DNA from: a virus
Length of the DNA stretch: 55,286 nt
Virus record (IMG/VR): IMGVR_UViG_3300027896_000052
Coordinates: 1-55,286 of that record
Strand: one strand, 5' to 3'
In this document: positions 16,735 to 31,840 of the stretch, in pieces
How the letters are laid out: each line of letters opens with the position of its first letter
Position numbering within the stretch: the stretch's first letter is position 1
Notes under the pieces: model-generated
Seen by the model: the letters and a program-made list of their open reading frames with translations, nothing else
Told to the model about the DNA's origin: nothing
Database searches by the model: none
Program-made: the position numbers and the translations under genes

Positions 16735-17363
16735 GGGGCCAGAATGATGGCCTTCCGCCCGCAGAAGGGCCGGATCAGTTCATCGACCTCCCGGATCCCG
16801 GTCTTGTAAAGAGCCGCCGGGCCGCTGAAGGTGTAACTGTATTTCGAGATCGATTCCGAGCCCAGAAGATAATTCGTGTAGAGGGTCGGATCGTTCATGT
16901 ACTCGACCAGCATCCGGGCGGCTTTCTTTGCCCAGGCCGGTACGGGACTTCCGCAGGTCCCATCGATCCAGATGTTGTTATAACCCCGCGGGAAGATGAC
17001 CTCGCCATCCTGTATTTCGGAGAGTAGGTATTCAAGTTCGGGGCTGAAAGGCCCGGCGCCGCTCGTGCTCAGGTCAATGAAGATGCTCGAGGAATCGAAC
17101 GTGTACCAACTCGTATCGAGTACGATGCCGGAAACCCGGACGCGCGAGATCCCGGTGATCTTCTCCCGGATCGGGAGGAAGAGCCGGTTTTTTCCGTTTC
17201 CATTGATCTTGAGGAGAAAGGGTTTCGGATAATAGGACCGCTTCAGGGCCGCTTCGAGCCGGGCCTCGGCGACTTCGATGGCTTCCTGCTTTTCGGCATC
17301 CGTTGTCCCTGACGGCCAGTTCCCGATGTCGCTATCGCTTATGTAATTCCCGGAATAAGGCAT
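16731..17363 (-). CDS. Head-tail connector protein (gp6-like)
   Basis: 210 residues with ribosome site CGGAGGA. The N-terminal helices (AEKQEAIEVAEARLEAALKR), the central beta part and the C-terminal helix (PAWAKKAARMLVEYMNDP) match the gp6/gp15 connector pattern. It follows the capsid genes and a strong terminator. It probably forms the ring below the portal. Its stop overlaps the first gene of the glycan cassette by ATGA. Confidence 0.75.
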   Translation of the reverse strand: MPYSGNYISDSDIGNWPSGTTDAEKQEAIEVAEARLEAALKRSYYPKPFLLKINGNGKNRLFLPIREKITGISRVRVSGIVLDTSWYTFDSSSIFIDLSTSGAGPFSPELEYLLSEIQDGEVIFPRGYNNIWIDGTCGSPVPAWAKKAARMLVEYMNDPTLYTNYLLGSESISKYSYTFSGPAALYKTGIREVDELIRPFCGRKAIILAP

Positions 17364-17381
17364 CGTCGCGTCCTCCGTTCA

Positions 17382-17427
17382 TAAAAACAGCGGCGGGGGG
17401 TTTGTTCCCCGCCCCGCCCCCCGCCGC
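17382..17427 (-). terminator. GC-rich intrinsic terminator after capsid gene set
   Basis: On the minus strand an 11-bp perfect stem GCGGCGGGGGG/CCCCCCGCCGC (arms 17417-17427 and 17390-17400) has a 16-nt loop and is followed by TGTTTTTAT. It sits between the 248-residue capsid-associated gene and the connector gene. It should reduce transcription from the capsid promoter into connector, glycan and tail genes, separating high-level capsid expression from the rest. Confidence 0.85.
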
Positions 17428-17465
17428 CTCAGTCAAAAAAGGATAAGGAGGTTCTGACCCCCAGG

Positions 17466-18212
17466 TCAGACGATCCGGGCCATGACGGCCTTGACGTAGT
17501 CGACCGAGAGGTTCTTGGCGACCGCCTCTCCGTTCATGAGGCCGAATCCGGCCGAGAGCGGGACCCCGACAGGGAAACCCGTAGCGACTTCGCCCTGGGC
17601 CAAGACGATCCCGGCGTCCGTGAAGATGAACCAGCGGACCGTCCCGGCGCCGTCGTAATGGATGCCGAAGATCGCGTAGGTCGCGTTGACCGCGTCGATC
17701 AGGGTGTCCACATCGATGACGACCGTCGAGTCCTCGACGCCGAAGAAGATGCTGGCCGCGCCGTCATCCTTGTGGAAATAGACGCCGTGAGCCGTGCTGC
17801 CGCCCAGGTATTCCAGGTCGACCAGGCCGAAGAAGAAGTCCGACTGGACGACGTCGTTGATCTTGAACCGGCCCTCCAGGTAGACCGGAAATCCGGCCTG
17901 AAGGATGAAGCTCAGGGGCGACAGATACTGCGTCTTGTCGTTGTCGGCCGCGGCGTTCGTGATCAGGAGGATCCCATTCGCTCCGCTCGTGACGACGTTC
18001 GTCCCGGCGCCGGTCTTCGAGACCGTCCAGACCCCGGAGGCCGCTTCCAGGAAGTGGTCCTCGAGGCGGACCGCGCTTCGCAGGTCGACATAGTTCTTGA
18101 TGACGTCCCACTTGTCGTGGTTGATGTGCGTGTTCAGGGGGTAGAGGTCCATGAGATAAAGCTCCGGGACCGTCCCTCCCAACCCGTAATGCGGGAAGTG
18201 TTCGTTATCCAT
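17466..18212 (-). CDS. Capsid-associated (decoration-type) protein, beta-rich
   Basis: 248 residues; the start at 18212 has GGAGGG upstream and overlaps the previous gene by 8 bases. It lies two genes after the major capsid protein. The body looks like a jelly-roll or concanavalin-like domain (LEDHFLEAASGVWTVSKTG; GILLITNAAADNDKTQYLS; YLEGRFKINDVVQSDFFFGL). The N-terminal 45 residues (NEHFPHYGLGGTVPELYL) may anchor it. This resembles, in style, the variable tail-tip proteins, which raises a surface-binding role. No family named. Confidence 0.65.
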   Translation of the reverse strand: MDNEHFPHYGLGGTVPELYLMDLYPLNTHINHDKWDVIKNYVDLRSAVRLEDHFLEAASGVWTVSKTGAGTNVVTSGANGILLITNAAADNDKTQYLSPLSFILQAGFPVYLEGRFKINDVVQSDFFFGLVDLEYLGGSTAHGVYFHKDDGAASIFFGVEDSTVVIDVDTLIDAVNATYAIFGIHYDGAGTVRWFIFTDAGIVLAQGEVATGFPVGVPLSAGFGLMNGEAVAKNLSVDYVKAVMARIV

Positions 18213-18519
18213 TGGCTCCCTCCAGAAGCGAAACAAGATCGGCTTTCTTCATATGCATGAAGTTGGCCTTGGCTTTCCGCCGTGCCGCGAGGGTCCGAAG
18301 TTCATTGATTTTGAGCTTCCGATAATCCGACAATTTGAGTCGAGGCCGTTCACCTCCGAGCGGTTCCTGGACTTCGACTGTCAATAGCGGGAATTTCGAA
18401 AGCTCGATCAAAGCGAGATCTCCGGTCACCTCCCGGGTTTCGCGGGCGGCGATGTGGACGTTTCCGATGCAGGTGGGAAACTCCCGGGTCGGTCCCCAAT
18501 TCGTGACAAGGGCGCGCAT
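18205..18519 (-). CDS. Small capsid-region protein with SAP/Rho-N-like end
   Basis: 104 residues, 17 bases after the capsid gene. The C terminus (RLKLSDYRKLKINELRTLAA, then KADLVSLLEG) resembles the short helix-extended-helix of Rho-N or SAP domains that bind nucleic acid and are often present in head-completion proteins. The N-terminal half (FPTCIGNVHIAARETREVTG) is beta-like. Function unknown; a head-completion protein is likely by position. Confidence 0.65.
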   Translation of the reverse strand: MRALVTNWGPTREFPTCIGNVHIAARETREVTGDLALIELSKFPLLTVEVQEPLGGERPRLKLSDYRKLKINELRTLAARRKAKANFMHMKKADLVSLLEGANG

Positions 18520-18536
18520 CGGCTATTCAGTCCGGA

Positions 18537-19652
18537 TTAGCAGTTGTGCTCGAGGCAGCGGATCAGAACGACGGCGTTCGGATTCTCGAGGGCCAGATCG
18601 ACCCGCATCGAGTAGAAGATGTAGGTCGCCTCGTCCTCGGGCGCGCGCTTGCTCTCGAGTTTGATGTCCCGCTGGATCCCGACGATCAGGTTCCCCTTCG
18701 GGGTGAGCAGGACGTCCGTATAGTTCCCGGCGCCGAGGATTCCGTCGGTCGAAGGCGTGGCCGTCGGATCGCCGAGAGTCGTCGGCATGAGCGGGCAGTC
18801 CAGGATCGGGACCCGTCCGTACTGGGGAGTCATCTCCCCCTTGAACACGGCGTCCCCGATGGCCGTCGACCGCGCGCTTAGGGCTCCAAGATAATCCTGG
18901 GTCACGAGGTCGCTGTTGAGGAAGCTCATGTTCTTGAGCCCGTTTTGGGTTTTGTACTTGGAGGGCATGTTCTTGAGGGCCTGGTGGTACTTGAATTCCC
19001 AATTGTAGGGCTGGGTCGTGGCCTGTTCCGCGATCAGGCCGTCCATCGAAAAGTCGGAGCCCGACGTCCCGCCTTCGCAGGCGTTCAGGATGTGGGGCTC
19101 GCCGGCGACCGCGTTGTAATAGGCCCCGCCGATCGAGGAGTGGGTGATGCGGTACCGCCAGCCGTCCCACATGCCGCGGATGTCGTCGACCGGGAAGCCG
19201 TTGAGGCCGTGGGTCTCGGAGATCCAAAAGGCTTCCTCCAGCTCGTTGGCGATCTTCGCCGTGATGATCTTCATGAGCTGGTTCTTGTAGGCGTCGGCCG
19301 TGATCCCGACCGGCAGGTCCTCGAGGTCGTCGTCGAAGACGGTGATCGCCCCTCGGACCTTCTGGGTCGTCAGGGTGATCTTCGAGGAGACCCATTGCTT
19401 CTTGTACTTGGTCTCGTTGAATTGGGCTCCGGGATAGAGGAAGTGCCCGCTGCCGAAGCCGATCGCCCGGATCAGCTTCTGGGGCTTGCCCATGCGTTCG
19501 ATGCGGGCGTAGTCCTTCATGACCGACTCGTCGACCATGTAGTCGATGAAGCGGTCCGCCTCCTCCTCCGTGAGCGTGATCGTCGGGAGGGAGATGAGGT
19601 TGTACCCCTTCTCCATCTTGAACCGCTCGAGCAGTTTCTTGGTCGTATTCAT
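18537..19652 (-). CDS. Major capsid protein (HK97 fold, PBSX XkdG-type)
   Basis: 371 residues, after the scaffold gene and an AGGAG ribosome site. Expected features are present: an N-terminal helical arm, a spine helix with ITADAYKNQLMKIITAKIANEL, a TPQYGRVPILDCPLMP stretch, and the end LLTPKGNLIVGIQRDIKLES with MRVDLALENPNAVVLIRCLE, which is typical of HK97-fold capsids. Scaffold and protease genes precede it. Should be the most abundant virion protein. Confidence 0.88.
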   Translation of the reverse strand: MNTTKKLLERFKMEKGYNLISLPTITLTEEEADRFIDYMVDESVMKDYARIERMGKPQKLIRAIGFGSGHFLYPGAQFNETKYKKQWVSSKITLTTQKVRGAITVFDDDLEDLPVGITADAYKNQLMKIITAKIANELEEAFWISETHGLNGFPVDDIRGMWDGWRYRITHSSIGGAYYNAVAGEPHILNACEGGTSGSDFSMDGLIAEQATTQPYNWEFKYHQALKNMPSKYKTQNGLKNMSFLNSDLVTQDYLGALSARSTAIGDAVFKGEMTPQYGRVPILDCPLMPTTLGDPTATPSTDGILGAGNYTDVLLTPKGNLIVGIQRDIKLESKRAPEDEATYIFYSMRVDLALENPNAVVLIRCLEHNC

Positions 19653-19710
19653 GGTTTCGATACTCCTGTTGAGTTTGCTGGGTTAGCCGCCGTAAAGACT
19701 TTTTCCGCCC

Positions 19711-20508
19711 TTAGTCGGCGTCGTCCTCGGGCCCGCCGAGGGAAGGCCACAAAGGCCCTTCGACCTTCTTGATCGGCTTGCCGTCCTTGTCGAGTTCGGG
19801 CTCGTCGCTCTTGTCGCCATCCTGGCCCTTGATGCTCTTGGAGATCCCCCGGCTCTTTTTCAGGGCCGCGTTTTCGTCCTCGAGCTTCTTGAGCCGCGCC
19901 TCGATGGCGTCGTCCTTGTCCTTGGCGGCCTTCTCGAGCGCCGCCTTGGCGTCGACCTGGGCCTTCTCGCCGGCCTTGATGACGGCGATCAGCGCCTCGG
20001 GCTTGCCCTCGTACTTCTGCAGGGCCGGGTCCGCCCCATCGCCCGCGATCATCGCGTCCAGGATGTCCTGGGCCTTGGTCATCCCGTCCTCGATCATGGT
20101 CTTGAGCTTCACCAGCTCGGCCTTCGTGGCCTTGCTCAGGCGAGCTCCGACTTTTTCGAGGGTGACGTCTTCGCCCCCGCCATCGGACTTGTGAGCCGCG
20201 ACCGGAGCCGCGGCGGTTGTGGCGCCCCGGGCCAGGGTCTGGATGGCCGCGAGGACATCCTTGGGCATTTCGTCCGCATACTTCCCGAGCAGGCCGACCG
20301 CCATTTTGAGGGCCTTTTGGGCTTCCTCGGACATAGCGCCCGCCTTCTCGAGCTCCTCGGCCGTCAGCTCGAGGCCGATCGACTTCAGGATTTCGATGAG
20401 TTTGTCCATGGTGTGCTTCCTTTTGATGATAGAGAATTTTTTACGGTTCGCGGCGGCATCGACCAGGCTGATCTCTTCCACCTCGATGTCCGTTAGCTTT
20501 CGAGCCAT
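19711..20508 (-). CDS. Scaffold protein with XkdF-like N terminus
   Basis: 265 residues; the start at 20508 has an AGGAG ribosome site. The N terminus (KLTDIEVEEISLVDAAANRK) is the signature opening of prohead protease/XkdF proteins, but the protein then becomes a long Ala/Lys/Glu-rich coiled coil (KAQVDAKAALEKAAKDKDDA, DAIEARLKKLEDENAALKKS) typical of scaffolds. The C-terminal 45 residues are acidic and Pro-rich. Likely the internal scaffold cleaved by the upstream protease. It is the first gene after an internal promoter. Confidence 0.78.
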   Translation of the reverse strand: MARKLTDIEVEEISLVDAAANRKKFSIIKRKHTMDKLIEILKSIGLELTAEELEKAGAMSEEAQKALKMAVGLLGKYADEMPKDVLAAIQTLARGATTAAAPVAAHKSDGGGEDVTLEKVGARLSKATKAELVKLKTMIEDGMTKAQDILDAMIAGDGADPALQKYEGKPEALIAVIKAGEKAQVDAKAALEKAAKDKDDAIEARLKKLEDENAALKKSRGISKSIKGQDGDKSDEPELDKDGKPIKKVEGPLWPSLGGPEDDAD

Positions 20509-20660
20509 GCAGGGGCTCCTCTCTCGTCGTTTCGGGATTCCCCCTGCAGGTTGCCGGCGGGTGATCCGGCTGCGTCCTCGAAGGCTCAACGTCGCGGCGC
20601 CGCGTCATTGCGACCGGCCCGCATCTTGACCGTCAGGTCCAGCGGTCCTTGTTCGGCTCC

Positions 20661-20689
20661 AAAATAGGGCCGATCTATACCGATGTCAA
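20661..20689 (-). promoter_or_regulatory. Internal promoter before scaffold and capsid genes
   Basis: Minus-strand TTGACA (20689-20684), a 17-base spacer, and TATTTT (20666-20661). It lies in the 206-base gap between the protease-domain gene and the scaffold gene, one of the few gaps in the operon. It matches the consensus of the other promoters here. It would lift scaffold and capsid expression, ending at the terminator near 17.4 kb. Confidence 0.8.
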
Positions 20690-20714
20690 GGAATATTTTT
20701 TTGGGAGGCCGACG

Positions 20715-23111
20715 TCAGTCTGCTTTTTTGGTCCAAACCGCCGCGGCCTTCCGCGCGGTCCCGCCCATGGAGAAGCCCGTGAGCTTTCCGCTCTGGACTT
20801 CCCCCCAAATCTCGGGATCCGTGACCTTGATCATCATCCACCACGAGCCGGCTTTAATGATCTCTGTCCCTTTTTTCATGTCGGCTTCGGGTTGGAAGCT
20901 CTCCAGGATCGGGAAATAATGGGCCGTCCCTTTGTGCATGACCTTGATCCGATTCGGATTTTTGGCGTAGCGTTCCATGAAGGAATACATCGCCGCGGTG
21001 ATCTCGGCGGCCGTGGTCATGTCGCCCTGGGTATCGACGGCGTTCGGTTCGTAGATGATCCCCCCGCAGATCTGCTGGGCGGCATCGACTTTCCGGATCT
21101 GGAAGACGAGGCGCTTCGAGAACCAGGCCCGCTTCTCCGTGCCCTCTGCCTTTTTGAATTCGGGCGGCTCCTTCTCAAATTCCGCATAATGGGATTTCAG
21201 GTGGTCATAGATCCCGGATCTGTCGGCGACCGGGACGGAGATCTGGGTGCGTCCGCCCTGAAGGGCCGCCATCGCAGCCGCGACGCCCCGCCAGACCGCC
21301 TTCAGACCGTCGGCGTGGTGATGGGGCAGCTTGTAACTCCCTTTGTTGTCCGGAGCTGCAGGATCGACCCATGCACAGATCTTCGCCAGCGTCTCGACGT
21401 CGGCAGCCGCGACCTCGGCGCCAGCGTCCCAGGCCTCAGCCTCCGGAGCCGTCCCATAATCGTGATAGGGGATGACGCCGGCCGCGGCTTTCCCAAAAGG
21501 CTTGGGGGCATGAGCCTCGGCCCAGGTCTTCGCCTTCTCCTCCGTCCATTTGTTCTTGTCGAAGAGGTAGGCCTGGATGTGGGTCGTCCCGCTATTGTCG
21601 GCGGTAAGGTTCCCGATGACGGCTTTGATCCCAAGATCTGCCGAGAGATCGATTATCCGAAACGAATCTTGGGCGAAATCGGCGGGATCCGTGATGCGGA
21701 CCCGGACGTATGCATCGGTCGTCCGGGCCTCGAATTTGTGCATTTTCACCATCTTACGGGCTTCGATTGCTCCATCTGCCCAGGCCGCCTCCTCCTCGAT
21801 CAGATCGAGAACATGTTGAGATGATGGCAGGGTCCGCTTTTTGATATGGCTATCGACCCAGGCTTGGGCGGCTTCCATCGTCCATTTCGTTTTGTCGAAA
21901 AGGTAGGTTGCGATCTGGTGATCGGTCACATCCTCGAGGGCTTTGATCCCCTGGGCCTCGCTCAGGATGATCGTCCGGATTTCATGACCCGCCGGGATGG
22001 CCCGGACCGGGATCCGGCGCAGGGTCATGGTCGTTTCGGGTTTGGCGATGACTTCCTGAGCCGCCTTGTCCGCGCGGAGCCGGTCTCGGAATGTCGTCTC
22101 TTTCATCAGTTCGATATTTTCTTTCGTGTCCATGGATGCCTCCCGTTTTTCGGTTTGAATATCATCTTGCGGGATGTTCTCACCAGACCCGCCAGGATTT
22201 CCTTCATCGATCGCCAAGGCCGAGGGATCGATCTTTTCGATCGGATCCTCATCCTTGCCCTTGCCCAACTCGACCGCCGGATCCGGACCGCCGCCGGGTG
22301 AGTTCGGCTTATTGCAGATGCCGCCGACCGGCTCCTCGTCGCCGCAGATAATACATCGGGGATGGCCATTCGGATGCGTCCACTTCGCGGGCTCGAATTT
22401 GTGTACGCCTTTGGCTTTCGCGCTCTTTGCGCTCTCTCGGATGACGGCGCTCTCGGCTTCGAAGCTCGCTTTTTCCGCCGGCGTCAGGGCTTTCCCGATC
22501 TCGAATTCAGCGTTCCCGTCGCCTCCGTTGCCGGGTACGATTTTATTCGTCGGTTTGGGCCGGAGGACTAGGTCGAAGACCGGCATATGGCTTCTGCCAC
22601 AGCCGGCGTGTTCGTAGGCAACCTGGATATCCTTCCCCGTTTCCTGCAGGGCCTTGGCCAGGCAGGCTTCGAGGGTCGCCGAGCTGTAGAAGATCCCGCG
22701 GTCTGTCCTTCCCGCCTTGATGACCACCTGGACGGCCGAGGCCTCCCGGGGATTTTTAATGAAGTCCCCGGTGATCGCCACGTAATCGTTCGCCAGCACG
22801 ATGTCGCCGAGCCCGGGAACATCCAGGCTCCAGAGCCCCTTCCGGACGACCCGGTCTTTCACCAGGCGATCGATCTCGCGTTCGCCCGAAATCGGAAGTC
22901 CGCGGCGAGTCATCTCAACCCGGAGCTCGACGTACCGGCTCAAGAAATCGCATTTCGCCATTCCGCGGATTTGATCTGTCGCCGGGTCATGGAAGAATCG
23001 ATCGAAAAGCTGGACGAAGCGGAAACGAAAATCTCGCAGCTCTCCATCATCCATGGCCTTGAAGGTCTCGGCCTTCGCTTCTTCGATGAGGTGTTTAAAT
23101 TTGGCCGGCAT
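20715..23111 (-). CDS. Multidomain prohead protein with C-terminal XkdF-type protease
   Basis: 798 residues. The C-terminal 120 residues match putative phage protease XkdF: GGIIYEPNAVDTQGD, a His in RIKVMHKGTAHYFPI, GSWWMMIKVTDPEIWGEV and the serine in LTGFSMGGTARK. The His and Ser are the likely catalytic pair. The N-terminal part (about 1-230) has a separate fold, then a zinc-knuckle-like CIICGDEEPVGGICNKP. Two copies of a repeat (YLFDKTKWTMEAAQAWVDSH and YLFDKNKWTEEKAKTWAEAH) lie in the middle. Probably cleaves scaffold and capsid arms during maturation. Unusually long for XkdF. Confidence 0.78.
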   Translation of the reverse strand: MPAKFKHLIEEAKAETFKAMDDGELRDFRFRFVQLFDRFFHDPATDQIRGMAKCDFLSRYVELRVEMTRRGLPISGEREIDRLVKDRVVRKGLWSLDVPGLGDIVLANDYVAITGDFIKNPREASAVQVVIKAGRTDRGIFYSSATLEACLAKALQETGKDIQVAYEHAGCGRSHMPVFDLVLRPKPTNKIVPGNGGDGNAEFEIGKALTPAEKASFEAESAVIRESAKSAKAKGVHKFEPAKWTHPNGHPRCIICGDEEPVGGICNKPNSPGGGPDPAVELGKGKDEDPIEKIDPSALAIDEGNPGGSGENIPQDDIQTEKREASMDTKENIELMKETTFRDRLRADKAAQEVIAKPETTMTLRRIPVRAIPAGHEIRTIILSEAQGIKALEDVTDHQIATYLFDKTKWTMEAAQAWVDSHIKKRTLPSSQHVLDLIEEEAAWADGAIEARKMVKMHKFEARTTDAYVRVRITDPADFAQDSFRIIDLSADLGIKAVIGNLTADNSGTTHIQAYLFDKNKWTEEKAKTWAEAHAPKPFGKAAAGVIPYHDYGTAPEAEAWDAGAEVAAADVETLAKICAWVDPAAPDNKGSYKLPHHHADGLKAVWRGVAAAMAALQGGRTQISVPVADRSGIYDHLKSHYAEFEKEPPEFKKAEGTEKRAWFSKRLVFQIRKVDAAQQICGGIIYEPNAVDTQGDMTTAAEITAAMYSFMERYAKNPNRIKVMHKGTAHYFPILESFQPEADMKKGTEIIKAGSWWMMIKVTDPEIWGEVQSGKLTGFSMGGTARKAAAVWTKKAD

Positions 23112-24210
23112 CCCCTCCCCCTTCCCCTCGAGGGATCTCTTCTCCCATTTTCAGACCTTCCATGAAATCGCAGGTCGAGACCGCCGAGCATCGGAGGATT
23201 GTCAACCAGCCGTGCTTCTTCCACCAGCAGCAAGCCTGCTTTTCAAAAAGCGGGGATCCACATTCCGGACATTTTCGATTTGGATCGGCCGGCCCGATCC
23301 GTCCCTGGAGTTCGATATGCTCCCGGGCGAGTTTCAGGATATAGGCGGCGATGGCTTCCGGCTTCAGGTGGTGCTCATAATAATCTCGGCCAGCCTCCTC
23401 GACTGTCTTGCGATCGGCCGGCCGCTCGAGCCATTCCTGCATGATCGCCGTCGCGTTCGAGAAGTCCGGGGCGACCTCGATGAAGGCGCCGGTCAGGGGA
23501 AAAGCCACGGCGACCGTGAGAGGCGGGGCGATGAGGGCCGTGCCGATGCCGAAGGTTTCGGTATGCCGCCAGGTCCAGGGCCCGATCCCAGGCGCCGTGA
23601 CGTTCAGGTCGGCCCTGGCGATCGCCTGGCAATACTGGACAGCCGTGAGTTTCGGGCCCCAAAGGGCTTGGGGGACCTCCGGGCGGTTCGACCTGCCCGA
23701 TACCCCGGCTAAGATCGTCTTCCCCTTGGGCGCCTTGACAGCCTTCGTCGCCGCGACCGCCTTGCATCGGACCTCGTAGGCCGTAGACCGCAGCAGGGCG
23801 ATGGCGGCGTAGAGGCGAATGCCGCTGGCCCGGATGGCCCGATATTCCGCGAGGCCGTCCATGAGATGCGGCCCGCAGGCGATCCCTATCGGGTAGAAAT
23901 CGGGTCGCCCGGCATCCTCGTGGGTCAGGTTCATCTTGAGATAGATATCATCCTTCGCCATGACCTCCGGGTGGATTACGTGAGGAAAATCGGCGAAGTC
24001 GTACCAGGCCCTCATCATCCTGTCTTCGTCCTCGACCTGGATCGGGATGACGCCCTTACCCTCGAATCCCAGGGCTCCATGGACCATCGCCAGGAGGGCC
24101 TTGTCTTCCTTGAAGTCGATCCCTTTGGTCTGGTAGAAACCGCTGCGTAGAAAATGGGCGTAAAATTCTGCTCCATGGCCACAGGTCGGAGGCATCCGGA
24201 CTTTAAGCAT
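23095..24210 (-). CDS. Glycosyltransferase-like protein with C-terminal zinc ribbon
   Basis: 371 residues. The region near 220-315 resembles the C-terminal half of spore-coat/GT1-2 type glycosyltransferases: ETFGIGTALIAPPLTVAVAF, GAFIEVAPDFSNATAIMQEW, then ADRKTVEEAGRDYYEHHLKP. The end carries CPECGSPLFEKQACCWWKK, a zinc-ribbon-like Cys set. The N terminus (PPTCGHGAEFYAHFLRSGF) is also Cys/His-bearing. It sits between the MuF-like and protease genes, an odd place for a glycosyltransferase. The link is a weak pattern match. Confidence 0.5.
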   Translation of the reverse strand: MLKVRMPPTCGHGAEFYAHFLRSGFYQTKGIDFKEDKALLAMVHGALGFEGKGVIPIQVEDEDRMMRAWYDFADFPHVIHPEVMAKDDIYLKMNLTHEDAGRPDFYPIGIACGPHLMDGLAEYRAIRASGIRLYAAIALLRSTAYEVRCKAVAATKAVKAPKGKTILAGVSGRSNRPEVPQALWGPKLTAVQYCQAIARADLNVTAPGIGPWTWRHTETFGIGTALIAPPLTVAVAFPLTGAFIEVAPDFSNATAIMQEWLERPADRKTVEEAGRDYYEHHLKPEAIAAYILKLAREHIELQGRIGPADPNRKCPECGSPLFEKQACCWWKKHGWLTILRCSAVSTCDFMEGLKMGEEIPRGEGGGDAGQI

Positions 24211-25279
24211 GGCGAGTCCTCCTCGAGCGGGTGAGTCTCTGCGGTCGAGATCGTTTTACCAATCGCTTCCTGACCCGGCCTGAAAACTGCGAAACGGTCT
24301 TTTTGTCAAACTGAGCTTTTTGCTTGGCCATCATCTGGACTTCCTCGGCTGGGATCTGGGTATCTCCCTCGTCTGGGCCCTCGGCATAAACCCAGGTCCC
24401 CTCACAATTTGGATGAGCGGGCAGGACGCCCTCGGCATCATCGACTGAATAGATCGACCCATTATCTTCCCGGCATTCATCAGGATCCCCAACTGGATCT
24501 TCGACGCGCTCGAGGTACTTGATGTCGTTTTCTTTATAGGCCGAGCGGATCCCCTCATTTAGGGCATAGGAGGTTTCCGTCCGGGCGATCGTGTCCGTCC
24601 GGTAGGCCAGGAGCCGATCCGCGTACCGGCCGGCCCGCTCATCAGCCGTCTCTTCGTCCATCCCGCCATCGACGAGCTTCGACCAATAATTCCCGACGGC
24701 TGCCGTTTGCTTTTCTGTGAGTCCGACTACATTGTTCGTTCGCAGATCCCGAGCGATCGCCTGGTTCGATTTGCCGTTGACGATCCGCGGGGCGATGAAG
24801 CCGATGATGCCCTGGCGGGTCCGCTCCGTGATCTCCGTGATGAGTTCGCCCGTGTGTTCGAGGCTCCACTTGTAGGCCGCCTCCGGCTGCGGGCCCTTGA
24901 GCGGAATGTATGGCCCGGGGCTACTTCCGCCGACGTCCTTGGCCATTCGGGAGGCCTTGAATTTGGCTACCTTGGGCATGGCCAGCTCCCAGCCGGTACC
25001 GTGCCCCAGGTCAATCGATGAAAGAAAGATCCGACGGCCTTGATCCTCGACCCATTTCCAGTCGATCAGGTTGTCCGCGATTTCCGTAGCCGTCTTTCCC
25101 TTGAGGCCCGCCTTGATCTTGGTATTCAGTACCTTCCGAATCATCATCATCCAGGCAGCCGACGCCAGCGTCATCCGCCGGCGTATGGACCTGGCCGCCT
25201 GCTTTTTCTGACGGATGATCTCATGCCGGCGAGCATTCGTCAGTTTCTTCCGGATCGAAATGAGCTCGGTCAGGTCCAT
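24203..25279 (-). CDS. MuF-like head morphogenesis protein
   Basis: 358 residues; the start at 25279 overlaps the previous stop (TAATG). The SPP1 gp7/MuF pattern is clear: a helical N-terminal part, then ADRLLAYRTDTIARTETSYA with NEGIRSAYKEN, followed by RVEDPVGDPDECREDNGSIY and PAHPNCEGTWVY (the conserved Asp-Cys/His-Pro-Cys of the family). It binds the portal inside the head. Near the C terminus is the octapeptide QFDKKTVS, which the terminase tail also contains, encoded by the same 24-base sequence. Confidence 0.85.
   Translation of the reverse strand: MDLTELISIRKKLTNARRHEIIRQKKQAARSIRRRMTLASAAWMMMIRKVLNTKIKAGLKGKTATEIADNLIDWKWVEDQGRRIFLSSIDLGHGTGWELAMPKVAKFKASRMAKDVGGSSPGPYIPLKGPQPEAAYKWSLEHTGELITEITERTRQGIIGFIAPRIVNGKSNQAIARDLRTNNVVGLTEKQTAAVGNYWSKLVDGGMDEETADERAGRYADRLLAYRTDTIARTETSYALNEGIRSAYKENDIKYLERVEDPVGDPDECREDNGSIYSVDDAEGVLPAHPNCEGTWVYAEGPDEGDTQIPAEEVQMMAKQKAQFDKKTVSQFSGRVRKRLVKRSRPQRLTRSRRTRHA
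24291..24314. repeat. 24-bp exact repeat, copy in the MuF-like gene
   Basis: The same 24 bases occur at 29192-29215 in the terminase gene, in the same strand and reading frame, encoding QFDKKTVS in both. Flanks are unrelated on both sides. A 24-base match is far beyond chance in 55 kb. Confidence 0.9.
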
Positions 25280-25521
25280 TATCTTTTCTTCCGTTTCGGG
25301 TAGATTCTGATCGTCCGCCCGTCTTCCAATTCGATCTCTCCCCAAATCTTCCCATGGCCGCAGCAGGAACCGCGCATATTGATCCCGGCTTCTTGGAAGG
25401 CTCGAACGATCGGGGCGATGCACTTATCGATCTTCATTCTTTTCCACTTGGCCCGACCCGAGCAGGACAGGTCAGCCGGGATCCTGATGCGTACCAATTC
25501 GTGAGTCCCCCATTTACACAT
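25279..25521 (-). CDS. Small Cys-rich protein
   Basis: 80 residues, overlapping its neighbours by 3-8 bases. Cysteines occur in MCKWGTHE, DLSCSGRAKWKR, KIDKCIAPIVRAFQ and MRGSCCGHGKIWGEIELEDG, suggesting a zinc or metal site. The last segment (GEIELEDGRTIRIYPKRKKR) is beta then basic. Similar small proteins recur in phage genomes but I cannot name a function. Confidence 0.75.
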   Translation of the reverse strand: MCKWGTHELVRIRIPADLSCSGRAKWKRMKIDKCIAPIVRAFQEAGINMRGSCCGHGKIWGEIELEDGRTIRIYPKRKKR

Positions 25522-25693
25522 TCTTCCGGCTCCGTTTCTTGATCAGGCCCTCTCTCATGAAGTCGGCCTGGAATTTGCGATACAGGGCATGGTGGGCCTG
25601 CTCATCGAGATAGACGTCGCCCATCCGAGATTCCGTCTTTGCCGCGCAGAGAGCCACGGTTTTGCTCCGTATCGTTCTTATCCGGATCGACAT
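25514..25693 (-). CDS. Small basic protein of unknown function
   Basis: 59 residues between the phosphatase and the Cys-rich protein; its start codon is 5 bases after the phosphatase stop region and its stop overlaps the next start. Sequence features: a basic opening (SIRIRTIRSKTVALCAAK), a helical middle (DEQAHHALYRKFQADFMREG) and a basic tail. Not recognised. Confidence 0.65.
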   Translation of the reverse strand: MSIRIRTIRSKTVALCAAKTESRMGDVYLDEQAHHALYRKFQADFMREGLIKKRSRKNV

Positions 25694-25699
25694 TCTGCC

Positions 25700-26284
25700 T
25701 CAGAGCCCGACCGCTTTTTTCAGCTTCGGGATGTCGGCGCCTCGGATCCAACCCGCGAGGTTTCCCCACAGCCAATGAAATCCGAATCCGCCATGAAGCA
25801 TCTCGTCGACGGCCTGCTCCTTCGTCCAGTTTTCGAAGACGATCCTGAACAGGGCGACCGACCAGCCCGTCCGGTCCGAGCCGTGCTGGCAATGGATGAG
25901 AACCGGGCCCGGGGCTATCTTGATTGCTTTCAGTACTGCGACGGCGTCCTCGAATTCGGGGTGCCAGGTGTGGGCGGGGATGTATGTCTCTTCGATCCCC
26001 TTGGGCAATAGGGCTTTATCGGGGTGCCCGGCATAGAGGTTGATATCCGTCGTTATGCCCAACTCCACGAGGCCCTTGGAGAAGCCCTCCGCCAGCGGTA
26101 GTGCCGATCGATAGACGGTCCATCGCGCGGGCGGCGCCGAAACCCGAAAAAGGTTCGGCAGGCCGGCGACCGTCATCGACTGTGCCCAGGTGCCCGGGCG
26201 ATCGACGATCGGTACGGGGACCGCGATCGCACAGGAAGAAAATAATAGGCCGACCAAGACGATCCAAAGAATCTTTTTGATCAT
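25700..26284 (-). CDS. Exported lipoprotein dual-specificity (tyrosine) phosphatase
   Basis: 194 residues with a strong AGGAGG site. Residues 1-17 form a signal peptide (KKILWIVLVGLLF) ending in a lipobox-like FSSC with Cys18. The catalytic P-loop HCQHGSDRTG gives Cys132 and Arg138 (CX5R), preceded by APGPVLI, as in cysteine phosphatases of the DSP/PTP class; WTVYRSALP is a typical N-terminal motif. The domain looks complete. It lies in the head operon between MuF and portal-side genes, unusual for a phage. Export suggests action in the periplasm or at the cell surface after expression in the host. Substrate unknown. Confidence 0.85.
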   Translation of the reverse strand: MIKKILWIVLVGLLFSSCAIAVPVPIVDRPGTWAQSMTVAGLPNLFRVSAPPARWTVYRSALPLAEGFSKGLVELGITTDINLYAGHPDKALLPKGIEETYIPAHTWHPEFEDAVAVLKAIKIAPGPVLIHCQHGSDRTGWSVALFRIVFENWTKEQAVDEMLHGGFGFHWLWGNLAGWIRGADIPKLKKAVGL

Positions 26285-26310
26285 ATCAGCCCTCCTCTTG
26301 GGTGATTTAT

Positions 26311-26451
26311 TTAATCCCGGCCGAAGGTCACGATTCTGATGATACTCCGACCGCGGAGAAGAAATGCGCTCTCCGGTGCCATCCCGGTCGTCTTCAGCAA
26401 GGTCAACATGCCGATCCGCGATGGCCGCTGCGGTCCCTGGGCGATCGCCAT
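26311..26451 (-). CDS. Short ORF, possibly the frameshifted end of the upstream gene
   Basis: 46 residues from ATG 26451 (AIAQGPQRPSRIGMLTLLKT) to TAA. Its frame is the -1 frame of the gene at 26403-26762 and is open from just upstream (NHLIFDEAM), with codons like those of neighbouring genes. The zero frame meanwhile turns into Arg/Ser-rich sequence before stopping. Either this is a separate small gene with a weak ribosome site (GAGG), or the two form one gene split by a frameshift near the C5 run at 26489-26493. Confidence 0.5.
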   Translation of the reverse strand: MAIAQGPQRPSRIGMLTLLKTTGMAPESAFLLRGRSIIRIVTFGRD

Positions 26452-26762
26452 CGCCTCGTCGAAAATGAGGTGATTGTCGGACCGCCTATGGGGGCCTCAT
26501 TGAGTACCCGGTCGATCATCTCCAGGACCTCGTGAGCCATGGCCATCCGACCTTCCGGCGTCTTCAGGTCCTGTTCCTGGAGGCCATCTGTGATCTTGAC
26601 GATCTTCCCATCGATGGCGGCGAGCGAAGATGATCCGGATTTCCGCGCCAGTTCTTCTTTCCAGCCAGTCCTGTCGAGGGTCGGAGCTGGCGGCTGGCCG
26701 ATCCCTAGGGGATCGCGGCGATGGCCTTCTTCGTCGACCGTGACGTTCAGGTCTTTGGGCAT
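26403..26762 (-). CDS. Unknown small protein, C terminus possibly out of frame
   Basis: 119 residues; the start overlaps the previous stop (TGATG). The body is helical and acidic (WKEELARKSGSSSLAAIDGK; DLKTPEGRMAMAHEVLEMID). After APIGG the sequence becomes Ser/Arg-rich (FSTRRWRSPRDRSGHRGSAC), which looks like out-of-frame translation. See the overlapping short ORF. Function unknown. Confidence 0.6.
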   Translation of the reverse strand: MPKDLNVTVDEEGHRRDPLGIGQPPAPTLDRTGWKEELARKSGSSSLAAIDGKIVKITDGLQEQDLKTPEGRMAMAHEVLEMIDRVLNEAPIGGPTITSFSTRRWRSPRDRSGHRGSAC

Positions 26763-27088
26763 CAGCCTCTCCCCCGGCCGCCAGGCACGATCAAGGCTGG
26801 GGCCGGCTTGAATTCCGGCTGCCGTCCTGGATTCGGATTCCGCTTCCGGGCCTCCTCCTCCGCCTTTTTGCTTTCGACGAGGATCTCCTCGAGCTTCTCA
26901 GCGGTGATTTCCTTCACCAGGATGATATTGCTCGCGCGCGTTTTGTAACGCGCTCCCGTCGCCGTCACGATCCCGATCATCGCCGAGGGCTTCTTTCGCA
27001 GGGCCTTGTCGAAGCTCGGGTTGTCGTAGGGCTGGTTAATCACCAGCGTCAACGGCGGCTGCTGTGTGTAGATCAAGATTGGCACCAT
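26762..27088 (-). CDS. Unknown protein after portal
   Basis: 108 residues with AGGAGG before the ATG, overlapping the portal 3' end by 53 bases. N-terminal beta-like part (VPILIYTQQPPLTLVINQPY), central MIGIVTATGARYKTRASNII, then an acidic helix (LEEILVESKKAEEEARKRNP) and a Pro/Gly-rich tail. Not recognised. Confidence 0.7.
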   Translation of the reverse strand: MVPILIYTQQPPLTLVINQPYDNPSFDKALRKKPSAMIGIVTATGARYKTRASNIILVKEITAEKLEEILVESKKAEEEARKRNPNPGRQPEFKPAPALIVPGGRGRG

Positions 27089-28775
27089 GGCCTCCTATTT
27101 TGGATTTCTCGTCGGCCAGGATCCCATCGACCCGGGCCGCGAGTTCGTCGATCCGCGTTTCCTTCCCGACCGCTGCGGCGTTCGTCCCGGCATCCGCGAT
27201 CGGCACATAGGTGCTCAGGATATAATATTTGTCCCCTTCCTCCTCCGGCGGGAGCTTCTCGAGTCCGATCTCGACGGCGATGTTGTTCCTGTTCATGACC
27301 CCGATCCCGAAAAGCTTGACGCAGCGGTCGACGATGGCCGTCATGTCCCGGGTATCGACCTCGCCCCACCAGAATTCGTAGGTATCATTCTCGAGGCCGG
27401 CCTGGATGATCTTCTTCGTGATGATCTTGGCCGTCAGGAGCTTGATCGGGTTGACCGTGCTATCGATATAGATCCGGGTCGACTCGGAAGCCGTGCTCCC
27501 GCCAAGACTTCCCTGCTCGGCAATCCCGATCCGGTAGGGCGGCATGCAATAGCAGACCAGGATTTCGTCCCGCAGGTTCTTCGTGTAGAGCTTGAAATGC
27601 CCCTCCTTGATCTCGACGACGAGCGGCTCCCAGACCACGGTCCCGCCCTCCGGAGGGTTGAGCACGACCGTCTTGTGGGAGTTGTTCGAGCCCTTGATCT
27701 CGGCATCGATGAAGTTCGAGATGGCCGTGACCGAGTCGTCTTCCCATTCTCCGGTGATCGTGACCAGGGCGGCCGGGATCCCGTAGTTCTCGAAGAAGGC
27801 CAGGTTGTAATCCCGGATCCCGATCAGGCCCTTCACGGCGCCGACGGCGGAAAGGATCGGGGGCGCGCCGTACCAGCTTGACCGCGGGTAATAGATGCGC
27901 TTGAAGATCAGCTCATTTGCCTTATGGACTTCGTCGCCGGGCTTCAGCGCCTGGCCTGTCCGTTCATCGATATCGCCTTCGACCCCGAATTTCTTGAACC
28001 AGATCCGGTCCGTCCCCCGAATCTGGCAATACTTCTGGCCCTGGCGATGGACGCGGATCGTGTGGGCCGGGATATGGCTGACCATATCGATCCTGCCATC
28101 GGTATCGCGTCCGATCTCGAGAGTCAGCCAGCCGATCGCGTTGTAATCGATGACCGCGGCTTCGAAGATCTCCTCCAGGGTTTCGTCCTCCTCGTTCGGG
28201 TCCTCGAGGAATTCCAAAATGCGCTTCCGCTCGGGATCTACAGCCGGCTCGGCAGGCGGGGTAGGGGCATCCGCCGGCAGGCCATCCTTCCCAGGCGAGG
28301 GCTGGGTATCCTGTTCGGTCTGGTCCGCTTCGTCTTTGAGGTCGAGATCGAATCCCTGGCCGACGACGTCGCGCGCGATCTGCCTGACCGCCTTGTCGAA
28401 GAACGCGCAGTTCTCCATGATCGTCAAGAGCCCGGCGACTTCGAAGGGCAGCGGGACCAGGTCGTATTCCATCATGTACCGGGTGTCTTCCTTGAGCTGC
28501 TTCGATTCCGCCCGCCCGGCCTTCGTCGCCGCCTTCTGGATCGCACTTCGCTGCAGGGTCCCGATCGGGAAAAGACCACGGTCGGTTTTGATGAACGTGT
28601 AGGCCTTCCCCTTCCTGGGGCCTGGGGCCGGCTCGGCTCCCGCGGCTAGATCTCGAGGGGCGGCTATGTCCGCCTCGGCGGCTTCCTCTGCCAGGTCCTT
28701 CAGCGTTTTCGTTGGACCGCCAGCGATCCGCCCGGTTTCATTTCGGGATGAAAACCCGACCTTTCCTTTTCCCAT
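27036..28775 (-). CDS. Portal protein
   Basis: 579 residues with GGAGG 5 bases before the ATG. The portal pattern is plain: GLLTIMENCAFFDKAVRQIA, AVIDYNAIGWLTLEIGRD, DMVSHIPAHTIRVHRQG, NELIFKRIYYPRSSWYGAPP, and the stem/crown part with YGIPAALVTITGEW and CMPPYRIGIAEQGSLGGSTA. This is the PBSX/SPP1-like phage portal type. An insert at 160-185 is Pro/Asp-rich and probably a surface loop. It follows the terminase with a 38-base overlap. Confidence 0.9.
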   Translation of the reverse strand: MGKGKVGFSSRNETGRIAGGPTKTLKDLAEEAAEADIAAPRDLAAGAEPAPGPRKGKAYTFIKTDRGLFPIGTLQRSAIQKAATKAGRAESKQLKEDTRYMMEYDLVPLPFEVAGLLTIMENCAFFDKAVRQIARDVVGQGFDLDLKDEADQTEQDTQPSPGKDGLPADAPTPPAEPAVDPERKRILEFLEDPNEEDETLEEIFEAAVIDYNAIGWLTLEIGRDTDGRIDMVSHIPAHTIRVHRQGQKYCQIRGTDRIWFKKFGVEGDIDERTGQALKPGDEVHKANELIFKRIYYPRSSWYGAPPILSAVGAVKGLIGIRDYNLAFFENYGIPAALVTITGEWEDDSVTAISNFIDAEIKGSNNSHKTVVLNPPEGGTVVWEPLVVEIKEGHFKLYTKNLRDEILVCYCMPPYRIGIAEQGSLGGSTASESTRIYIDSTVNPIKLLTAKIITKKIIQAGLENDTYEFWWGEVDTRDMTAIVDRCVKLFGIGVMNRNNIAVEIGLEKLPPEEEGDKYYILSTYVPIADAGTNAAAVGKETRIDELAARVDGILADEKSKIGGHGANLDLHTAAAVDAGD

Positions 28776-30816
28776 ATTGTCCTCCGTTCGGGCCGGCTAC
28801 CGATCCGGTCCCGGAATTCGCGTCTACAGGCCCTACAACGGGCTTTTGACCGTCGGGGGGGCCTGGTACCCGGGGGGCCTGGGCTTCCCCTTGGCTTGCC
28901 CCGGTTCCCGGCGGCGGCGGCCGTAAAGGTTCGCCGTCTGTGACCCCCTCGGGGGGGGGCTGGGGTCCCTGACCCGGCTTAGGGGGCCAGATCTCGTTTA
29001 CCTGGGGGTCCGGCGGCTTCCCGGGCCCCTCATCGTTGCCATCAGCTCCCGGAGCTCGCCTGGCTTCGGCTGCCGCCCTTTGGATTGTGTGTTTCTCCGC
29101 GCTGGGGGCCTCGATCGCCGGGGGGCTGATAGGGGGGGCCGCCAGCTGGGATGTCGGGCTCAAATCCGATGCCGGATTGCTTGAAATCGGAGAAACGGTC
29201 TTTTTGTCAAACTGAACAGATGCTTGACCTCCCCCAATGATGGGCAGACCGCCCGTCGCCGCTATGATCCTTGCCGCCGTGGCCACGGGCTGCCCGGCGA
29301 GTCCTGCGATCGCCGCCATGACCGCCGGGTCGATACGGGCGTCGCCTCTCGAGGTGGCCGCCATGGCCTTCGTCGTTACGAAGACCTTGCCTTTCCGCGG
29401 CGCCGGCTTCATTTGCCACATCGCAAAATACCGGGTTTCGTCCATCGCATGGTCCCGCTCCTTGACCGGCTTGCCGTGGCGTTGGATGTAGCCCGCTTCC
29501 TCGGAGATCCAATGCCGGTTGACCTGGTTGATCCACATCGTCGGCGGCCCGATGACCGGACGCAGGGCTTTCCGGACCGCCTCGAGCCCGATGTCGACGT
29601 CGTTATCAGCTTCGGTCATGGGGATGAAGGCCCGCCATTCCGACATCAAGTCCGGCCGGCTGGGATCTCCGACCCCGCCTCGAATGTTCGGCCACCAGGC
29701 CTTCCCCTGAGCCGTTTTGATCAGATGGGGATTGTCGCCGGCTTGCTGGATCTCATCGACCCGGACCCAGCCGATATTGAAGAGCTGCCAGCAGCCAAGG
29801 CTGAAAGGATGGGTCCCGCCCCAGTCGATCGAGACCAGGGCATAGCGTCCGGGATCGAAGCCCGGGAGATCCCCGCGGCTATGAATCTTCGGGTCATATT
29901 GATCGCCGTAAACGAGGTTGCCTGGCCCGATCTTGCGACAGAGCCATTCGACCTGCAGGGCGCTTTCGCTCAGGTACTCGAGCTTGTCGATGAAGTCCTG
30001 GACGCGGTAGAAGCCATCCGCTTGCTTCATGTGCTTTCCCGGGCACCAGCTCGAGAGCTTGCAAGTCGAGCACGAATAATCGAGGCAGGGCTCGAGGCAT
30101 TCCCAAATACACCAGCGGTAGATCGAAGTCTGATGGATCCTGGCCTGCTCCAAGGCCTCATCCATCATGCCGCCCGAGCGGTGGTTCGTCGAATACTGAC
30201 CCAGGCGGGCGAAGATCCCATGCTTCGATTGCGGCTGCGAAAGGGCCGCCCTATATACTTCAGCCGGCATCTCGTCAATTTCGTCCATGATGAGGTGCTG
30301 AGGATGCGGGCCGCGCGTCGATCGCGTGGAGGCCGTCAGGACGGCGACCGTGCTGCCGTTCCGCCAACTCGAGAGGCGCCGCGTCGGCTCCATCTTCAGG
30401 TATTCGTCCTGCAGGGTCGTCAGGGTCCAGATGTCTTCCATGGCCTTGTAGACTTTCTCCGATTGGTCGAGGGATCCGCCGAGGATCGTCGTTTCGAGTC
30501 GATGATTGAAACTCGAAAGGACCCAGGCGATCAGCCCGGCGAGGTAGCTCTTGCTGCCGCTACGATTTGCCCACACGAGGTAATTCAGAATCCTGCCGAT
30601 CAGGACGTCGACCAGGAAATCGAAGGGGGCGCTGTGGTCCGCCTCGAGGCAGTTGTGTCTGGTTCCGACCCGCGGCTCCCGGAGCCAGCCGAGCAGGTTC
30701 TGGACGTCAGCCTTGGTTCTCAGACCCGTCTGTCTTAGGTTCTCGAGGGCTGCCCGCTGGATCGACGGGGCAAACTGGGACGACCAGAATTTCTGGATTT
30801 CTTCCGCCGTCGCCAT
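28738..30816 (-). CDS. Terminase large subunit
   Basis: 692 residues from ATG 30816 (two upstream ATGs at 30948 and 30924 are possible but would overlap the small subunit more). The ATPase has an atypical Walker A ANRSGSKS (83-90) and Walker B LIMDE (175-179). The nuclease has Asp331 (VSIDWGG) and Asp384 (GVGDPSRPDL). A Cys cluster lies at 240-258. After residue 520 comes an unusual tail of about 170 residues, rich in Pro, Ala and Gly, that includes QFDKKTVS. Motor and headful or cos cutting; it docks on the portal. Confidence 0.9.
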   Translation of the reverse strand: MATAEEIQKFWSSQFAPSIQRAALENLRQTGLRTKADVQNLLGWLREPRVGTRHNCLEADHSAPFDFLVDVLIGRILNYLVWANRSGSKSYLAGLIAWVLSSFNHRLETTILGGSLDQSEKVYKAMEDIWTLTTLQDEYLKMEPTRRLSSWRNGSTVAVLTASTRSTRGPHPQHLIMDEIDEMPAEVYRAALSQPQSKHGIFARLGQYSTNHRSGGMMDEALEQARIHQTSIYRWCIWECLEPCLDYSCSTCKLSSWCPGKHMKQADGFYRVQDFIDKLEYLSESALQVEWLCRKIGPGNLVYGDQYDPKIHSRGDLPGFDPGRYALVSIDWGGTHPFSLGCWQLFNIGWVRVDEIQQAGDNPHLIKTAQGKAWWPNIRGGVGDPSRPDLMSEWRAFIPMTEADNDVDIGLEAVRKALRPVIGPPTMWINQVNRHWISEEAGYIQRHGKPVKERDHAMDETRYFAMWQMKPAPRKGKVFVTTKAMAATSRGDARIDPAVMAAIAGLAGQPVATAARIIAATGGLPIIGGGQASVQFDKKTVSPISSNPASDLSPTSQLAAPPISPPAIEAPSAEKHTIQRAAAEARRAPGADGNDEGPGKPPDPQVNEIWPPKPGQGPQPPPEGVTDGEPLRPPPPGTGASQGEAQAPRVPGPPDGQKPVVGPVDANSGTGSVAGPNGGQYGKRKGRVFIPK
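29192..29215. repeat. 24-bp exact repeat, copy in the terminase gene
   Basis: Identical to 24291-24314 and in the same frame, encoding QFDKKTVS in the Pro-rich C-terminal tail of the large terminase. See the copy in the MuF-like gene. Confidence 0.9.
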
Positions 30817-31840
30817 TGCCGTTGCCGTTCCCTGGGGCTGCGGTCGAAGGGGCTCCGCCGGCGGCCGGCAAGAATCCCCGAAGACGGGCGATGAGTTCCC
30901 TTGGGTTTGGGGTACCGAATTCATGCATAAACTCCGCCATCTGTTCATTCAGGGTCATCCGAAGATCCCGGATTTCGACCCGCTTTGGGATCTGTTCTAT
31001 GAATCCCAAATTGACCAGCTCCTCCCTGTATTCGCGCTCGATGTCCCAATAGGCTTCGTAGTCCTTCTCGGCCAGGGCCATCTCCTGGGCGGTCTGTTTT
31101 ACGAAAACGAGATCCGCGAAAACATTCTGGGTATTCAAGTCCGGGATCAGGACCGCGGCATCCTCCCGGATCAGTCGCTGCCTCTTTGATCGAATTTCCT
31201 TCGGGGTCCGTTCAAGAAGATCCGCAATCGCTCCTACCGTGATATCCGGCTGCCTGGCCGTGAAGTAGACGATGATGGCGTCGACCTGGTGACGGGTCAG
31301 GACTCGGGGATCGATCCCGGCCGGCCGCTGGGGCTGCTTCGTCTCCCGGGCTTCCCGTTCGGCCGCCTTGAATGCCTGGACCTTGGAGATCAAGGTCCGG
31401 ATGCGATCGAGGCTTGACTTCGGGGGGGTTTGACCGACGGCGAGCCGTGCCTCCCCCCGCTCCCGGCGAGCCCGACGCATCCTTCGGAGCTGGAGGGCCC
31501 GCTTAAAGGCCTCGGGTCCTCCTTTGAAATTCTCTATGCCAACCGTACTGGGGCCGCCTTCCAGGGTTAATCTTCCCAGGGTTTGGATTCGGGAGAGCGT
31601 CGATGCCGAAAACTCCGGGAGAAGAAGGGGTAGGGGGTCGCTACTCACGACGCCGAGGGTGCTTTTGGCACCTGCTTCTGTCGAAGCGATTTCAGCCGTG
31701 GCTTTCGCGGCCCCCTCCACAAGGGGTTTCGAATTTATGGGGTGGAGAAGGGAACCGGCTGGAACATCGTTGCCGCCTAGGACGGCAGCCCCCATGGAAG
31801 CCCGAGAGGTACCGGCCCCTTCCCCTTCTTTAATGGTCAT
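30707..31840 (-). CDS. Terminase small subunit-like protein
   Basis: 377 residues directly before the large terminase, overlapping it by about 110 bases. Residues about 150-220 hold a helix-turn-helix-like region (LTRHQVDAIIVYFTARQPDI, then VGAIADLLERTPKEIRSKRQ), and a long helical region follows (EKDYEAYWDIEREYREELVN). The first 100 residues and the last 50 are low complexity. Larger than the usual 150-200 residues. DNA recognition for packaging is inferred from order plus the HTH pattern. Confidence 0.68.
   Translation of the reverse strand: MTIKEGEGAGTSRASMGAAVLGGNDVPAGSLLHPINSKPLVEGAAKATAEIASTEAGAKSTLGVVSSDPLPLLLPEFSASTLSRIQTLGRLTLEGGPSTVGIENFKGGPEAFKRALQLRRMRRARRERGEARLAVGQTPPKSSLDRIRTLISKVQAFKAAEREARETKQPQRPAGIDPRVLTRHQVDAIIVYFTARQPDITVGAIADLLERTPKEIRSKRQRLIREDAAVLIPDLNTQNVFADLVFVKQTAQEMALAEKDYEAYWDIEREYREELVNLGFIEQIPKRVEIRDLRMTLNEQMAEFMHEFGTPNPRELIARLRGFLPAAGGAPSTAAPGNGNGNGDGGRNPEILVVPVCPVDPAGSPREPKTDGSENQG

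Follow-up and report, generated by a model that had tools for sequence, protein, structure and literature searches.

How does a gene for a cysteine phosphatase with an export-signal-like N terminus come to lie among the head genes of a tailed phage, and on what might its product act? The window, the whole 55,286-base stretch of the virus record analysed here, is assigned to a tailed phage from its terminase, portal, MuF, protease, head-tail adaptor, and tape-measure matches, and possibly represents a partial genome; no tRNA genes were found in the record. The gene and its elements are as follows.

25700-26284, minus strand: TpbA-like cysteine phosphatase (dual-specificity type), 194 amino acids, ATG start, stop included
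26291-26296, minus strand: ribosome-binding site AGGAGG, 6 bases before the phosphatase ATG
25871-25894, minus strand: phosphate-binding loop HCQHGSDR, residues 131-138, with the nucleophile Cys132 (sequence and alignment)
26222-26284, minus strand: N-terminal residues 1-21, predicted to act as an export signal (sequence and hydropathy); signal peptidase I might cut after the final AIA
26231-26245, minus strand: lipobox-like LFSSC, residues 14-18, with Cys18; the loose pattern fits, the strict pattern does not

The sequence-only reading had proposed a complete HCX5R cysteine phosphatase encoded by a full gene rather than a fragment, and both points hold: the 194-residue open frame occupies exactly 25700-26284, AGGAGG precedes it, and the HCX5R loop is intact as HCQHGSDR, with C132 and R138. 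The product matches Pfam Y_phosphatase3 with 27.9 bits (cut-off 22.2) and DSPc with 28 bits, below the cut-off of 33.5. A phmmer search of the PDB puts TpbA of Pseudomonas aeruginosa first (E 6.6e-23), with TpbA entries in all three leading places (4r0s, 2m3v, and 4r0t) and DUSP13 next at E 0.0034. Judged by these sequence matches, the identity of the product as a cysteine phosphatase is far beyond chance. In profile searches, no family was found for it in PHROGs, the standard phage family library (E up to 0.1), or in NCBIfam (E up to 1).

The AlphaFold model of the phage phosphatase, built from 67 aligned sequences, has a mean pLDDT of 94.0 and a pTM of 0.86. With this model, TpbA heads the Foldseek ranking (TM-score 0.87 by target), and VIA-align superposes the predicted structure on TpbA (4r0s) with a Z of 22.5 and an rmsd of 2.1 over 157 residues, the runners-up being SIW14 (Z 18.1) and DUSP23 (Z 18.0). 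The predicted fold is that of the PTP/DSP class, and the structure prediction and family search suggested along with the first reading both lead to TpbA as the best match, in sequence and in structure. TpbA (PA3885) is a periplasmic dual-specificity phosphatase which, as outlined in PMC4409338, acts in the periplasm and hydrolyses phosphotyrosine peptides from the periplasmic domain of the diguanylate cyclase TpbB; its action on the periplasmic tyrosines of TpbB leads to less c-di-GMP and less biofilm, and Asp105 is its general acid. TpbA and the phage phosphatase share the fold, the HCX5R loop, a signal-like N terminus, and a similar length, at 36% identity in the alignment, and TpbA offers a ready assay for the phage enzyme.

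Across the 67 aligned sequences, H131, C132, G135, D137, R138, T139, and G140 are invariant (67/67). Gln62, found in 64 of the 67 sequences, and Arg84, found in 65, are substituted in the phage phosphatase. Leu62 is common to the phage phosphatase, TpbA (L009), and a plasmid relative of TpbA (L008); Arg84 is likewise absent from TpbA, and L008 has Tyr84, as does the phage phosphatase. Unlike TpbA, the phage phosphatase has Trp107 at the place of Asp105, where 50 of the 67 family members have Trp, as well as a possible lipobox and a gene situated in a head operon. The position of TpbA Asp108 is taken by Glu110, with Glu112 and Asp113 close by in the alignment. Since the Asp105 and Asp108 positions, Gln62, and Arg84 are all replaced, catalysis and specificity may differ; catalysis by the phage phosphatase is likely.

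The N terminus of the phage phosphatase, MIKKILWIVLVGLLFSSCAIAVPVP, resembles an export signal, with Lys at positions 3 and 4, a long apolar stretch, and small residues. The best 12-residue hydropathy mean there is 2.8, a sequence feature taken from a hydropathy scan only. This hydrophobic, signal-like N terminus with its two lysines agrees with the export signal that had been claimed. The accompanying claim of a lipobox-like Cys18 survives in part: a loose pattern, which we take to be of the PROSITE PS51257 type, fits, whereas the strict pattern [LVI][ASTVI][GAS]C does not, the residue at -3 being Phe, and AIA directly after Cys18 provides a competing site of the signal peptidase I type. Because the loose pattern alone fits and AIA follows, lipoprotein status is possible and no firmer, and Cys18 may or may not be lipid-anchored.

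In a scan of bacterial and archaeal genomes, relatives are encoded in at least 485 of the 580 matching stretches. The best 80 of these (at least 485) relatives come from many phyla and are 35-47% identical to the phage phosphatase; at such identities of the closest listed relatives, the substrate cannot be carried over. With start codons picked by rule, at least one start codon gives a strongly hydrophobic N terminus for 67 of the best 80, so the signal appears to be a habit of the family, and 16 of the 80 have a loose lipobox. The phage phosphatase is a member of a broad, mostly signal-bearing HCxHGxDRTG phosphatase family, of which TpbA is the solved example. Bacterial members from Rhizobium, Caballeronia, and Burkholderia are about 41-43% identical to it, with the same loop and mostly signal-like N termini; the Rhizobium/Caballeronia-type relatives are chromosome or plasmid genes annotated as 'dual specificity protein phosphatase family protein'. 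The Gln62 and Arg84 of this bacterial family are absent from the phage phosphatase.

In trees, the placement of the phage phosphatase is not firm. A quick tree places it with TpbA (SH-aLRT 85, not starred), and a careful tree places it with Acinetobacter proteins (90/83, not starred), apart from TpbA; a clade of the phage phosphatase and TpbA is not rejected by a topology test (p 0.42). A true TpbA orthologue was rejected as an assignment, since the general-acid position differs and the tree placement varies.

The surroundings of the gene show how it is integrated into the head operon.

25288-26314, no strand: accessory insert of about 1.03 kb holding the phosphatase gene and two small ORFs, missing in the sister phage (L010/L014)
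25514-25693, minus strand: 59-amino-acid ORF, 6 bases after the phosphatase gene
25279-25521, minus strand: 80-amino-acid ORF with a weak phrog_12958 match and an SCCGHGK motif, overlapping the 59-amino-acid ORF and the MuF start
24203-25279, minus strand: MuF-type head protein, flank of the insert
27036-28775, minus strand: portal protein, the other flank, with two small genes between it and the phosphatase gene

The place between MuF-side and portal-side genes was thus correctly read from the sequence. From the phosphatase gene through the 59- and 80-amino-acid ORFs to the MuF gene, the successive junctions are a 6-base gap, an 8-base overlap, and a TAATG overlap. A longer GTG frame for MuF was considered and set aside in favour of the ATG at 25279, which agrees with the start in the sister phage. 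A scan for sigma-70-type promoter and intrinsic-terminator patterns found neither type inside the insert; as far as these two kinds of pattern show, the gene would be an insertion within the operon rather than a moron with its own promoter. The position in the operon would suggest that the phosphatase is expressed late.

The sister phage, IMGVR_UViG_3300046703_000154 (loci L010, L014, and L178), keeps the portal, terminase, and MuF proteins at 78-80% identity (portal 80%) and a 371-amino-acid gene product at 89%. Its other head genes have 77-95% protein identity, the protease, in pieces, 68-83%, and the product of the small gene directly upstream of the phosphatase 40%. DNA matches to the sister stop at 26315 and resume at 25287 of the window, corresponding to 9796 and 9806 of L010, with nine bases between; the boundaries of the insert were taken from these DNA matches because MAFFT smeared the MuF start of L010 across the insert. 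The phosphatase is absent from L010/L014, where the flanking genes are present. In the distant L012 (portal 42%), the portal, small genes, MuF, and protease follow in the same order with no phosphatase match, and the 371-amino-acid gene likewise has no match there. Since both phages keep the portal-MuF-protease order without it, the phosphatase gene is accessory, and it is present or absent at a clean place between related phages, as in a phage cargo gene. The AT skew is positive in only 2 of 31 composition windows (25750-26249 and 26000-26499), both over the phosphatase, as expected of recently gained DNA.

Two minor observations concern the same comparison. The adjoining small gene upstream of the phosphatase (26310-26762, minus strand) is frameshifted relative to its counterpart in the sister (L010 9432-9800); its conserved second half is in a different frame, and the matched stretch lacks 19 bases relative to the sister. 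At L010 12011-14996, about 1.4 kb of other sequence separates the matching pieces of the head protease; inspected by eye, this segment resembles ADP-ribosyltransferase-type domains, an assignment that was not confirmed, as Pfam returned nothing at E 0.001 and an RNA 2'-phosphotransferase led the PDB matches at E 0.14.

The absence from the sister raises the question of whether the gene is passive or decaying cargo without a selected function. Besides that absence, the replacement of Q62, R84, and the TpbA general acid and the frameshift in the small gene just upstream would fit such a decay; the full-length open frame, the good ribosome-binding site, the intact P-loop, and the tight coupling to the next genes speak against it, and we consider this reading improbable. 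Far less credible still is an assembly chimera in which bacterial DNA was joined to a phage contig. It is true that the arrangement was found in this contig alone and that L013, identical to this phage over 6 kb, ends before the phosphatase arrangement. However, the phosphatase is separated from MuF by the 59-amino-acid ORF and the virus-related 80-amino-acid ORF, whose start and stop codons overlap, and the G+C of the phosphatase stretch is similar to that of the flanks. Relatives of the 80-amino-acid ORF, 71-84% identical, occur in four other virus contigs, whose compared stretches hold no phosphatase match; this ORF has no match among deposited phages, and the 59-amino-acid ORF has no relative among the loci compared.

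At E up to 0.01, the phage phosphatase matches just two of 50,697 deposited phage records, both of them contigs named 'Acinetobacter phage MD-2021a'. These were rejected as phage evidence: one of the two, L007 (CAKLQH020000002.1), looks chromosomal, because secA, folC, accD, and trpA adjoin its phosphatase gene. In 2.9 million virus contigs, relatives are encoded in 147 of 240 pattern-bearing stretches. Eighty of the 147 were kept (79 records, some near-identical), a set that includes contig ends and possible host flanks; 16 of these loci have a loose lipobox and 22 a strongly hydrophobic N terminus. The view that such a gene is unusual in phages therefore stands for deposited phages and is weakened for uncultured virus contigs, where the superfamily recurs, in some cases with lipoboxes. 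As cargo, the phosphatase gene is real, intact, and unusual; the kind of enzyme is known, and the setting is absent from the deposited phages searched. In BFVD, tailed-phage proteins named phosphatases match the predicted structure. A protein tyrosine phosphatase is mentioned as an auxiliary gene of Vibrio phage vB_VneS_J26 in the source consulted (PMC12038007), and the two phage-encoded enzymes are likened here by description alone. In the titles and abstract openings of the papers listed, no phage-encoded exported phosphatase of the TpbA-like type was found. PHROGs gives no match for five related phosphatases from other virus contigs either, and exported protein phosphatases would join the phage cargo worth scanning for.

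Several uncultured viruses carry related genes near their packaging genes. In L098 (IMGVR_UViG_3300035148_000529), a phosphatase 43% identical to that of this phage, signal-less from its ATG start, is encoded upstream of ParB-like and terS-like genes (names by eye) and of terL and portal genes (Pfam). The two phosphatases are alike in the TWHPE loop and in their closeness to packaging genes, whereas that of L098 lies upstream of terL and portal, has no signal, and groups with Akkermansiaceae and Acidobacteria proteins (97/82). L117 possesses two different phosphatases of the superfamily in one head operon (8938-9441 and 11975-12415). The first, between terL and portal, contains LLGGC, which fits a lipobox pattern, its Cys14 being just short of the position rule used for the 80-locus lipobox count; the second, between portal and MuF, is signal-less. 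In L122, a lipobox phosphatase precedes terL and portal by about 3 kb; in L002 and L003, one is situated at the extreme contig end, after tail-type genes (by eye). In L101, a lipobox phosphatase likewise lies at the end of its contig, and the flank there may belong to a host.

The signal-less phosphatases of L098, upstream of terL and portal, and of L117, between portal and MuF, are compatible with a virion-carried or cytoplasmic effector that is packaged or ejected with the DNA, in which case the hydrophobic N terminus of the phage phosphatase would be no true export signal. Packaging has been proposed for other domains of effector type that are fused to MuF or portal proteins, as stated in the part of PMC9503650 consulted. 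The phage phosphatase is, however, unfused to MuF or portal, and its N terminus, with two lysines, an apolar stretch, and small residues, is like that of most bacterial relatives; we regard such an effector as distinctly improbable.

Of 50 scanned records among the 79, 13 have a Terminase_6N match (E <= 0.001), 11 of them over the cut-off, and 3 have Phage_portal. The distance from phosphatase to terminase, determined by hand, is less than 2 kb in L098, L117, and L126 and about 3-9 kb in L122, L131, and L125; in the remaining seven Terminase_6N records it is at least 16 kb, and the overall range extends from less than 1 kb to more than 80 kb. Since the distances vary and the contigs are of widely differing size, no enrichment near packaging genes is claimed. 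A single viral origin for the phosphatases of this phage, L098, L002, and L101 was rejected (p-AU 0.0004, for groups chosen after the tree was viewed), and the phage phosphatase and L098 alone as one clade are not rejected (p 0.097). A wider reading, which we hold doubtful, is that dual-specificity phosphatases of exported or lipoprotein type were repeatedly taken up by uncultured tailed phages, within or next to the packaging genes, as late effectors that would shut off host envelope phospho-signalling before release, c-di-GMP control of attachment being one example. This phage, L117, and L122 would then be independent cases of one strategy and the signal-less L098 its cytoplasmic counterpart, which is equally doubtful.

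For the phage of this record itself, an intact phosphatase with a predicted export signal hints that something in the host cell envelope is altered by the phage. Our preferred reading, a tentative one in which we place slightly less than even confidence, is that a tailed phage gained an exported TpbA-like phosphatase as a late effector on host envelope phosphoproteins. An intact bacterial-type TpbA-like phosphatase would have been acquired with two small ORFs, between the portal-side genes and MuF, and its expression would be late, as part of the head-operon transcript. The signal sequence would carry it over the inner membrane, where it would be lipid-anchored if Cys18 is processed and otherwise free in the periplasm, and the Cys132/Arg138 mechanism would strip phosphate from host envelope phosphoproteins. 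By analogy with TpbA, which acts on the periplasmic part of a diguanylate cyclase, signalling proteins would be the likeliest targets, and the host would be expected to attach less, or to signal less through its envelope, either late in infection or in carrier cells. Should the enzyme be active in the periplasm, the phage would act on host envelope signalling from its head operon. Such a periplasmic role presupposes a host with an outer membrane. Positions 15000-31000 have no near match among phages, and the portal relatives among deposited phages comprise 170 records, all below 60% identity; because viruses of archaea and of Streptomyces are among these, the host might lack a periplasm.

Alternatively, as the main rival reading, the exported enzyme may act on sugar phosphates, lipid-linked glycans, or phospholipids and thereby change the cell surface, for instance to keep out superinfecting phages or to prevent progeny from readsorbing. 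The capsule-kinase-controlled or phosphoinositide-type substrates put forward in the sequence-only reading are speculative. Glycan-type genes are found in the late region of the window.

13307-14083, minus strand: GT2 glycosyltransferase, match over the cut-off
16000-16734, minus strand: MptE-like, below the cut-off
23095-24210, minus strand: the 371-amino-acid gene, Glyco_trans_1_2 match below the cut-off, between MuF and the head protease

In addition to these genes, the fold matches of the model include the inositol-pyrophosphate phosphatase SIW14, and a weak PTP-like phytase match occurs in 38 of the 67 family members; one Caballeronia relative lies near a glycosyltransferase, and one P. 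veronii relative is beside a phosphoesterase. Nevertheless, the phage phosphatase itself has no match to the PTP-like phytase profile, and the neighbours of the bacterial relatives (same strand, within 150 bases, longest-ORF rule, drawn from the 80 bacterial loci) are without pattern, no Pfam family occurring in more than 2 of the 66 and no pathway being indicated. Furthermore, the nearer relative TpbA acts on phosphotyrosine peptides, as outlined in PMC4409338. A target of this kind is accordingly judged rather unlikely, and envelope phosphoproteins remain the favoured candidate substrates of the phage phosphatase.

Beyond the head genes, the stretch from the tape-measure side to the head-tail adaptor (11045-16734, minus strand) holds further cargo-like genes, namely a methyltransferase-like gene (below the cut-off), the GT2 gene, and the MptE-like gene. 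A Cas4-domain exonuclease-like protein (phrog_1990) is encoded at 49262-50317 and a DUF5131 protein at 42011-42700, both on the minus strand.
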